A DNA stretch of 64,000 nucleotides, from contig JACQDB010000036.1 in the NCBI GenBank assembly GCA_016201275.1, positions 1 through 64,000 on the forward strand, read 5' to 3'. Of the stretch, positions 17,244 to 25,501 are shown piece by piece (position 1 is the stretch's first letter; every line of letters begins with the position of its first letter). The notes below the pieces were generated by a model, which searched no databases, was not told the DNA's origin, and saw only the letters and a program-made list of their open reading frames with translations. A program made the position numbers and the translations under genes. This DNA comes from Acidobacteriota bacterium. GTDB taxonomy: Bacteria > Acidobacteriota > Blastocatellia > UBA7656.

Positions 17244-17318
17244 GATCTCTCCTTTTTTCGATTGCTCTCGTTATCAACTCGACTTTGTACATTTTTCAGA
17301 GGCGAACCGAGCTTGCCA

Positions 17319-17557
17319 ATCCCCCCGATGGAAATCGGGGGATGGTTAAAGTCCAACCTACGAAACGCTGCCAACGAGAAACGAATCCCCCCGATGGAAA
17401 TCGGGGGATGGTTAAAGTCCAACCTATGAAACGCTGCCTACGACAATCGAATCCCCCCGATGGAAATCGGGGGATATTTAAAGTCCAACCTATGAAACGC
17501 TGCCTACGATAATCGAATCCCCCCGATGGCAATCGGGGGGATAGTTAAAGTCCAACC
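17319..17557 (+). repeat. REP-like tandem array, four units of 65-66 bp
   Basis: Each unit has a hairpin (CCCCCGATGGAAATCGGGGG, with small changes in unit 4) followed by the tail GGTTAAAGTCCAACC, changed to ATTTAAAG or AGTTAAAG in units 3 and 4. Between units the sequence is also conserved (TGAAACGCTGCC), so these are tandem repeats and not CRISPR spacers. The same tail borders the Y1 transposase at 24017-24850. Confidence 0.8.
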
Positions 17558-17570
17558 TTGCCCGATGCTC

Positions 17571-17617
17571 AAGGCTGGACTTTAACCATCCCCCAAGCGA
17601 CTCTCCGTTGGGGGATT
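17571..17617 (-). repeat. Single inverted REP-like unit
   Basis: GGCTGGACTTTAACCATCCC with the stem CCCCCAA...TTGGGGG, in the opposite orientation to the four-unit array it closes. Confidence 0.65.
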
Positions 17618-17704
17618 CAGATGAATGGCCAAACGCCTCGGCTCTCCGTTGCTAGATTTTTCAGAGGCGAAGCAGCCTGATTTCATCGGCTTTTTCAACC
17701 CCTA

Positions 17705-17747
17705 GAATTATTGAACCTCACCTCAACAAGCTGAGGTTCAATAATTC
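17705..17747. repeat. Perfect 16-bp inverted repeat
   Basis: GAATTATTGAACCTCA (17705-17720) and TGAGGTTCAATAATTC (17732-17747) with an 11-base loop, inside the 535-bp element. Confidence 0.7.
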
Positions 17748-17821
17748 CAGGCGCAAACCGCAGCGTCAGCCCTTGATTGGTGTTGTTCAATCTGAAATTG
17801 TACAAAGTCGAGATAAGGGAA

Positions 17822-23975: not shown

Positions 23976-24019
23976 GAATCCCCCCAACGGCAGTTGGGGG
24001 AAGCTTAAAGTCCAACCTA
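23976..24019 (+). repeat. REP-like hairpin at the 3' side of the transposase
   Basis: CCCCCAACGGCAGTTGGGGG (23981-24000) followed by the tail TTAAAGTCCAACC. The tail runs straight into the transposase stop codon (TAG at 24017-24019 on the - strand). Confidence 0.8.
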
Positions 24020-24850
24020 CGAGCCTTCGCTCAGAAACGCCTTAACCAGTGCTGTCGTGACCTTGCCAGTTGTCCCCGCATACGCGGAGGCTTGCCACAA
24101 CCGTTCTATCTTGGCTTGGATCAGCACTTCCGGCATATGCTGCCCGACGAAATGCTGTCCATTGTTGAGCAATGCGAGGGCACATTCTTCAATGCTCATC
24201 TTAGGCGCAATTCTCACCAGGAGGTGCGTATGATCGGGCAAGGTGGTGACACGATCAATAGCAAAACCGCGCACGGACGCGACACGCTGCCAGTATTGAA
24301 TCAGCCTTTCTCCCAAAACAGAATCGAAAACACTGCGGCGATAACGAGTGGCGAAAACCAGATGATGACTTAGCTCGAAACTCGAATGTTCGGCTGACAA
24401 CGTAACTGATTCCCCAGCCCTGTAACGGGAGACCGGCGGATGGACACGCTTCTCATAGCCGTGATGTTCGCCCTGCTCACTGATGTATTGCTTAACGACT
24501 CCAAGGCGCACACGCCCAATGCTGCGCGCCAAAAAACCGCGTCCCCACAAGGGCTGCGTCAGCGCAAAATGGGCATTGAAAAGCCGCGCCGAGTTGGCTT
24601 TGACCGTCTGCGTGACCTTGGAGATGGTTTGCGCGGGAGACAAACTGAGCAAGCAACGCAAATGATCCGCATAGACCTTGGCTTGTAACAGGTGGTAATC
24701 GTGGCGCTGGCAAATCTCGCGCAAAGCCGTCTCCAACAACTCGACGTGTTCTGGGGTAATGAAGACGGCGCGGCAGCGACGAGTACGGAAACACAGATAG
24801 TAGTGAAGCTGATAAGCCCAAGAAATCGTCTTCAAAGGTTCGAGCAACAT
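24017..24850 (-). CDS. Fused two-domain Y1 (HUH) REP-associated transposase
   Basis: 277 residues from ATG 24850, with GGAGGG four bases upstream; the longer frame upstream only translates REP sequence. Two IS200/IS605-type Y1 domains follow one another. Domain 1 (about 10-135) has HLR at 63-65 where HUH is expected, but keeps Tyr122 in KQYISEQ after LWGRGFLARS. Domain 2 (about 155-275) has intact HTH at 207-209 (PDHTHLLV), but Phe272 (KAFLSE) replaces Tyr after LWQASAYAGTTG. In IS608 TnpA the HUH pair is H64/H66 and the Tyr is Y127, with each site built from two subunits, so this fusion can form one complete site. Inverted REP-like hairpins lie on both sides. Activity is inferred, not shown. 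Confidence 0.88.
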   Translation of the reverse strand: MLLEPLKTISWAYQLHYYLCFRTRRCRAVFITPEHVELLETALREICQRHDYHLLQAKVYADHLRCLLSLSPAQTISKVTQTVKANSARLFNAHFALTQPLWGRGFLARSIGRVRLGVVKQYISEQGEHHGYEKRVHPPVSRYRAGESVTLSAEHSSFELSHHLVFATRYRRSVFDSVLGERLIQYWQRVASVRGFAIDRVTTLPDHTHLLVRIAPKMSIEECALALLNNGQHFVGQHMPEVLIQAKIERLWQASAYAGTTGKVTTALVKAFLSEGS

Positions 24851-24863
24851 ACGCCCTCCGCAA

Positions 24864-24905
24864 GGCTGGACTTTAACCATCCCCCAACTACCGTTGGGGG
24901 GATTC
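24864..24905 (-). repeat. REP-like hairpin at the 5' side of the transposase
   Basis: The tail GGCTGGACTTTAACCATC followed by CCCCCAAC-TACC-GTTGGGGG (24881-24900). The tail faces the transposase, as in the hairpin at 23976, so the two are inverted. Confidence 0.8.
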
Positions 24906-24930: not shown

Positions 24931-24973
24931 TAGGTTGGACCTTAACCATCCCCCAACTACCGTTGGGGGGATT
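24931..24973 (-). repeat. Second REP-like hairpin upstream of the transposase
   Basis: GGTTGGACCTTAACCATC and CCCCCAAC-TACC-GTTGGGGG (24950-24969), a close direct copy of the preceding hairpin. Confidence 0.78.
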
Positions 24974-24995: not shown

Positions 24996-25031
24996 TAGTT
25001 GGACTTTAACCATTCCTCAACGGCTGTTCGG
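24996..25031 (-). repeat. Decayed REP-like unit
   Basis: The tail GTTGGACTTTAACCAT is kept, but the hairpin arms have lost most C and G residues (TCCTCAACGGCTGTT). Confidence 0.5.
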
Positions 25032-25055: not shown

Positions 25056-25316
25056 CTACTGATAGGCTTCTCGGCGATGGCGAACAGCGATGACGTCAAC
25101 AAGTTTTTGCGGATCGTTTATCGTATAAAGAACTCGGTAGTCGCCGACACCAATGCGCCATAAATCTTCTTCGCCGGTCAGCTTGAGGCATTTCGGCGGA
25201 CGGGGTTCTTTCGCCAGCATCGCGATTTTCGGGAAAATACAATTCACCATAGAAGCTTCCAAAGCTTCCAACTCTTTTCTGGCTGGTCAAGCAAAGGTGA
25301 TTGTATATTCAGCCAC
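25056..25316 (-). pseudogene. RelE/ParE-family toxin broken by an in-frame TGA
   Basis: Read from GTG 25316 (AAAGGAAG upstream), the frame gives AEYTITFA, then TGA at 25287-25289, then PARKELEALEASMVNCIFP and onward to a full RelE ending (LWRIGVGDYRVLYTIN, VDVIAVRHRREAYQ). Family members usually carry Arg or Lys at the stop position, and CGA to TGA is one change. Apart from this codon the toxin fold is complete, including basic and aromatic C-terminal residues. Re-initiation at TTG 25271 would lose the first strand and part of the first helix. The toxin mRNA interferase is therefore probably dead. Confidence 0.75.
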
Positions 25317-25501
25317 TCAGCTTCCTTTGTTTTAACTAATCGTTTCCTAACCGACTCTAAAGATTCTCTGGGCTCCTTTTCCCGTAAGCTAGCTACCAGA
25401 CTGTCATAAAAATCTTCCCAAAGCTTCCCATACTTTTGCAGGTCAATCAGGACAGCCACCTTCTGCCCTTTGTCATCAGAAACGAACTGTATGCCTTTCA
25501 T
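25244..25501 (-). CDS. Antitoxin of a RelE-type toxin-antitoxin pair
   Basis: 85 residues. GIQFVSDDKGQKVAVLIDLQ then EDFYDSLVASLREKEPRESLESVRKRL is typical of small antitoxins encoded just before RelE toxins in many Gram-negative bacteria and cyanobacteria. It normally binds DNA with its N-terminal part and wraps the toxin with its C-terminal helix. The last residues (about 62-85) overlap the toxin frame by some 70 bases, which is longer than usual. A single-base shift would instead give a TGA just at the toxin GTG, so the C-terminus may also be mutated. Confidence 0.7.
   Translation of the reverse strand: MKGIQFVSDDKGQKVAVLIDLQKYGKLWEDFYDSLVASLREKEPRESLESVRKRLVKTKEAEWLNIQSPLLDQPEKSWKLWKLLW

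Follow-up and report, generated by a model that had tools for sequence, protein, structure and literature searches.

What becomes of an enzyme whose active sites are shared between two subunits once both subunits are joined in a single chain? The question is raised by a gene in the 64,000-nucleotide stretch of Acidobacteriota DNA analyzed here (the window), which encodes two Y1 domains in one protein, each holding only part of the residues needed for catalysis. Crystal structures have shown that IS200/IS605 transposases share their sites between subunits. In IS608, the metal ligands H64, H66 and D61 are contributed by one chain and Q131 by the other, which also supplies Y127 (PMC5934647). For the window protein, sites formed in cis would leave both domains incomplete, whereas sites working in trans would leave exactly one complete site. 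Our analysis makes it likely that the protein is a fused dimer of class 1 Y1 domains with one composite active site, which would bind the REP sequences adjoining its gene and cut them through Tyr122.

Two incomplete Y1 domains in one chain

The gene, its domains and the flanking REP sequences are listed in Table 1. The start codon of the 277-aa CDS was assigned by comparison with homologues; upstream of it, the open frame continues through the REP sequences. Two Y1_Tnp domains are recognized by Pfam (134 bits in total; 71.0 and 66.8 bits by place) and the protein scores above the curated cut-offs of both PF01797 (134 bits against a cut-off of 23) and NF033573 (146.6 bits against 55). Translation of positions 24017–24850 confirms the residues on which the original prediction was built (H63-L-R65 and Y122 in the first domain, H207-T-H209 and F272 in the second). 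The set of HUH, Tyr and Gln is incomplete in each domain taken singly and complete only across both, and the chain ends after Phe272 with no Gln equivalent to Q126.

No tnpB was seen adjoining the gene and no distinct left and right IS ends were recognized there, only REP sequences of the same kind on both flanks. Two small ORFs adjoining the gene (71 and 85 aa; window positions 25056–25501, minus strand) would seem, by eye, to resemble a toxin of the RelE/ParE type and an antitoxin.

Table 1. Features of the tandem Y1 locus, in window coordinates.
Feature	Position	Strand	Remarks
CDS, tandem Y1 protein, 277 aa	24017..24850	minus	ATG at 24850
Domain 1, residues 10-130	24461..24823	minus	Y1 fold; HUH dead, Tyr helix live (Pfam, alignment, AF2)
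H63-L64-R65	24656..24664	minus	Degenerate HUH of domain 1; second His gone in 17/17 homologues
Tyr122	24485..24487	minus	Present in 17/17; aligned to IS608 Y127
Gln126 (Tyr+4)	24473..24475	minus	Present in 17/17; aligned to IS608 Q131, a metal ligand (PMC5934647)
Domain 2, residues 153-277	24020..24394	minus	Y1 fold; HUH live, Tyr helix truncated (Pfam, alignment, AF2)
H207-T208-H209	24224..24232	minus	Intact HUH of domain 2, 17/17
Phe272	24035..24037	minus	At the Tyr position (17 homologues: F 11, W 2, V 2, Y 2)
REP 1, upstream	24881..24900	minus	AATC-CCCCCAACGGTAGTTGGGGG-ATGGTTAAAG; on the gene's strand
REP 2, upstream	24950..24969	minus	69 bp from REP 1, same orientation
Decayed third REP, upstream	25015..25031	minus	CCTCAACGGCTGTTCGG on the plus strand; read from the sequence
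REP, downstream	23981..24000	plus	Opposite orientation

Complementary decay is conserved in tandem homologues

Tandem homologues (n = 17) were found in Acidobacteriota, with identities down to 24%. Their hosts are G004 and G005 (three genes) from the same family, G022, G393, G394, G403 and G406 from the same class, a Terriglobia MAG (L041 and L042) and, more distant within the phylum, G195 (L180 and L184, at 24–25% identity). Some of these proteins had to be pieced from frame-shifted MAG contigs and were compared piecewise, never mended; L037/L043, L063/L074, L069 and L070 are frame-shifted or partial. The family appears to be rare, since only two of 297 sampled genomes of the phylum matched a single-protein query (E ≤ 1e-25). 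In the plasmid collection, the matches listed were single-domain IS200/IS605 TnpA proteins, each matched by both halves of the query.

The second His of the domain 1 HUH is retained in none of the 17 homologues, its place being taken by R, Q, L or P or being unalignable, while the Tyr and the Gln of this domain are present in all. In domain 2 the HUH is intact in 17/17, Tyr remains in only two (replaced by F in 11, W in two and V in two) and Gln in none. About 43 single-domain relatives from related genomes and plasmids served as a control and have HUH, Tyr and Gln intact with rare exceptions, such as L001 (G000:C42:253-606), with DAVH for HUH, and L018, with Cys for Tyr. Because the same complementary pattern recurs in every tandem homologue, that of the window protein is not the chance degeneration of one copy. 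Homologues with HUH and Tyr in both domains, which the original prediction had named as evidence against itself, were searched for and none were found among the 17.

A strict co-variation of R65 and F272, also envisaged there, was not seen: HUH1 is gone in 17/17 and Tyr2 in 15/17, as expected if HUH1 was lost first, and the two losses are not strictly coupled. The two homologues in which Tyr2 is still present (G022/L012 and L070, a frame-shifted copy from G393) both lack HUH1 and Gln2, so that Tyr2 was probably lost later than HUH1. In the tree, the first domains group in one well supported clade and the second domains in another (99% SH-aLRT), a topology that would be compatible with a single fusion; an AU test on the origin of both domains from one internal duplication gave p 0.54.

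Close tandem copies are under purifying selection, with dN/dS values of 0.18–0.20 for L041/L042 and 0.27–0.36 for a pair in G005. It could still be argued that the protein has lost catalysis altogether and serves only in REP binding or regulation, as half of the catalytic residues of the ancestor are missing and several copies are frame-shifted. We regard this as highly improbable: Y122, Q126, H207 and H209 are invariant at 24–61% identity while the reciprocal residues vary freely (R/Q/L/P and F/W/V/Y), and a mere binder would not need this set.

A predicted one-chain fold with IS608-like equivalences

The AlphaFold model and comparison with IS608 proposed alongside the original prediction gave a confident one-chain fold whose top matches are IS608 and ISDra2 TnpA. 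The AF2 model of the single chain (21 rows) has a mean pLDDT of 92.7 and a pTM of 0.89; most of the domain 1 Tyr helix is well predicted, and linker residues 131–134 have low pLDDT. A 10-row model predicted both Tyr helices poorly, and the conclusions use the 21-row model. In Foldseek searches of the PDB, the two TnpA proteins were matched over a whole chain (TMt up to 0.89; rmsd 2.4 over 130 columns), the RAYT structure 4ER8 was matched poorly (TMt 0.49), and a BFVD fold search with the model gave nothing meaningful. Profile alignment sets the domain 1 motif VkqYleeQ on VKQYIENQ of IS608 TnpA and the domain 2 motif dHvH on DHIH, making Y122/Q126 equivalent to IS608 Y127/Q131 and H207/H209 equivalent to H64/H66.

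Under the IS608 trans rule, a fused dimer that keeps a single composite site should show just this complementary decay. The site that was kept would combine the metal-binding His207 and His209 of domain 2 with the nucleophile Tyr122 and the metal ligand Gln126 from the final helix of domain 1. The other, reciprocal site, made of the domain 1 HUH and the domain 2 Tyr helix, would have decayed by loss of the second His, the Gln and usually the Tyr. This assignment draws on strong comparative evidence. A covalent pseudo-dimer with exactly one composite trans site, as first proposed from this sequence, appears to be the arrangement best supported by the 17/17 pattern, the asymmetry of Q126, the IS608 equivalences and the predicted one-chain model.

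The same residues could be brought together between chains, HUH2 of one protein meeting Tyr122 and Gln126 of another, so that two tandem proteins would form a dimer containing two equivalent sites. The conserved residues would be identical in such an arrangement, and the linker, flexible if its low pLDDT is a guide, would permit swapping. We nevertheless find it rather unlikely, given that a lone chain is predicted with the pTM expected of an in-chain pseudo-dimer and that fusion would favor in-chain pairing on concentration grounds. Pairing of the two halves within one chain is probably the arrangement adopted.

REP sequences flank the tandem genes

The three REP sequences at 23981, 24881 and 24950 are the only matches in the window at up to three mismatches, where 0.18 would be expected. 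REP-like hairpins occur at all of the 15 tandem loci found first, with stems of 7–9 bp, loops of 3–7 nt and a spacing of mostly about 65–72 bp; those upstream mostly point the same way as the gene, and inverted copies lie downstream where the sequence reaches. At 12 of these 15 loci the same stem recurs in three or more copies, the other three being two loci with truncated flanks and L069, with one hairpin. By the same criterion (at least three same-stem copies), 5 of 46 single-domain Y1 loci are positive; class 1 Y1 genes outside the tandem family may thus be associated with REPs as well. Stems vary by gene: the three tandem genes of G005 carry three different REP families. Near the distant G195 members there are only one to a few REP-like hairpins. 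The connection with REP sequences raised in the original prediction thus finds support in the REPs flanking these loci. In the same class, at least three same-stem hairpins were also observed close to the single-domain Y---Q Y1 genes L035, L022, L111, L030 and L029.

At the tandem loci the 5′ foot of the REP sequences is mostly AATC, AATA or GATR, and TTCA follows the stem after 3–6 nt at 13 of the 15 loci, which belong to related lineages, with TTAA in the genome of the window itself. The right end of IS608 has GAAT as guide and TCAA as cleavage site (PMC5934647), a pair that the AAT(C/A) foot and the 3′ TTCA would appear to resemble. From the association of gene and hairpins, the protein most likely binds single-stranded REP hairpins adjoining its own gene. 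It would cut one strand at a time through a Tyr122–DNA link, with one cut per protein, and such cutting could, as the original prediction supposed, be specific to a strand or an end. By analogy with IS608, the likeness to the guide/cleavage pair suggests where the cut may fall. The contribution of the tandem protein to REP turnover would be their making, copying or trimming.

REP sequences elsewhere in the genomes and their relation to MITEs

Exact copies of the hairpin CCCCCAACN4GTTGGGGG number 193 in the genome of the window (G000), 17 in G004 and 4 in G027; the other relatives searched have none. A wider REP pattern, applied to 162 genomes of the class, gave 320 matches in G005, 248 in G000, 91 in G004, 45 in G006, fewer in others and none in about 144 genomes. 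Across this set of genomes, REP richness is associated with the tandem gene (Fisher p about 1e-6, with no correction for kinship). Six REP-bearing genomes, mostly fragmented MAGs, are without a detected tandem gene (G006, G402, G404, G405, G418 and G027).

Many REPs of G000 are arranged in arrays of 2–6 copies inside elements of 360–685 bp with the terminal repeat CTCGACTTTGTAC, and identical 5-bp flanks (CTTAG, CTAAG, CTTAC, CTTAT, CTTTG), taken as target-site duplications, surround many of the element copies examined. In G004, REP clusters abut a different terminal repeat, CTAGCAGGCTGCTGAAAAAGTCG. Since these REPs lie inside MITEs with terminal repeats, DDE-type MITE movement explains much of their dispersal, and because the genome-wide REPs of both G000 and G004 are largely inside inverted-repeat MITEs, REP spread need not be the doing of the tandem protein. 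That the tandem protein moved all genomic REPs is rejected on the same ground.

One could go further and see in the REP hairpins nothing but cargo of DDE-type MITEs, functionally unlinked to the tandem protein, a view favored by the REP arrays within CTCGACTTTGTAC-ended elements with identical flanks in G000 and by the abutting CTAGCAGGCTGCTGAAAAAGTCG repeat in G004. We hold it to be improbable, however, since, locus by locus, the REPs on both flanks face the gene and have a different stem, including at the three paralogues of one genome, since the window gene cluster is without MITE ends, and since the tandem gene is under purifying selection. REP processing and MITE spread are, moreover, compatible.

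Several further arrangements of REPs and terminal repeats were observed. A 535-bp MITE-like element at window positions 17278–17812 has the terminal inverted repeat CTCGACTTTGTAC, of which 125 ends occur in the genome, and contains four REPs (CCCCCGAT-N4-ATCGGGGG type); its sister copies are bounded by identical 5-bp sequences such as CTTAG or CTAAG. In G004, a long terminal inverted repeat, CTAGCAGGCTGCTGAAAAAGTCGATGA...GGTGCAATC, borders the REP clusters L169–L179 and is also found on one side of that genome's tandem Y1 gene. The left arms of the MITEs at L080, L081, L085, L087 and L105 include a tandem repeat of ~42 bp (CAACGGAGAGCCGAGGCGGTGAGGCCATTCGTCTGAATCC) beginning with half a REP stem.

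Relation to known Y1 families

The tandem protein resembles IS200/IS605 TnpA (IS608, ISDra2; PF01797, NF033573; class 1 of PMC6006769) in the fold and sequence of both halves, in the class 1 signature Y---Q and the HUH, in its presumed trans site logic and in its hairpin DNA with a 5′ tetranucleotide guide. It differs in that these transposases are homodimers with two sites while the tandem protein would form one composite site in one chain, and in that the window gene is flanked by REP arrays with no tnpB seen adjoining it. Elements of the IS200/IS605 group have distinct left and right ends and insert 3′ of a fixed tetranucleotide.

With the RAYTs, or TnpA-REP, and their REPtrons (E. coli TnpAREP, PDB 4ER8) it shares REPs on both sides in opposite orientations, REPs spread genome-wide and what would effectively be one active site per polypeptide. 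RAYTs, however, are single-domain monomers with the signature Y---NP, whereas the tandem protein has two class 1 domains with Y122---Q126 (signatures as in PMC6006769). RAYT REPs carry GTAG 5′ of the stem (PMC8266576), in contrast to the AAT[C/A] foot and TTCA of the tandem-gene REPs. The window protein falls below the cut-off of the RAYT model, NCBIfam REP_Tyr_transpos (57.5 bits against 80). It is neither a RAYT by sequence, though placed like one, nor a standard TnpA. The TIRYTs and TIRtrons, which include an Acidobacteria group, are likewise tyrosine transposase genes flanked by inverted repeats (PMC3733652), but HUH and Tyr are described as conserved in all of them and that study contains no tandem form.

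Searches of open-licence papers turned up no account of a Y1 enzyme in tandem form. Before the Y1 classification, long proteins, ascribed to gene fusions or annotation errors, were discarded (PMC6006769). On the best reading of the sequences, the family of the window protein would be a new variant of the Y1 superfamily, a REP-processing pseudo-dimer with a single active site. We lean towards the view that these proteins are undescribed single-chain IS200-type dimers with one composite site which process REPs independently of RAYTs, so that fusion and site loss would reach the state of the monomeric RAYTs (one site, and one REP cut per protein) by another route.

Implications

The tandem proteins amount to a natural complementation experiment in which, after fusion, the residues of one shared site are kept while those of the other drift. 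An enzyme with one gene and one site would provide a direct test bed for single-strand cleavage, for strand transfer and for the need for a second site. A one-site HUH enzyme that occurs naturally as a single chain and would act on a small hairpin may also be practically useful. Our findings suggest that REP-processing enzymes arose more than once.
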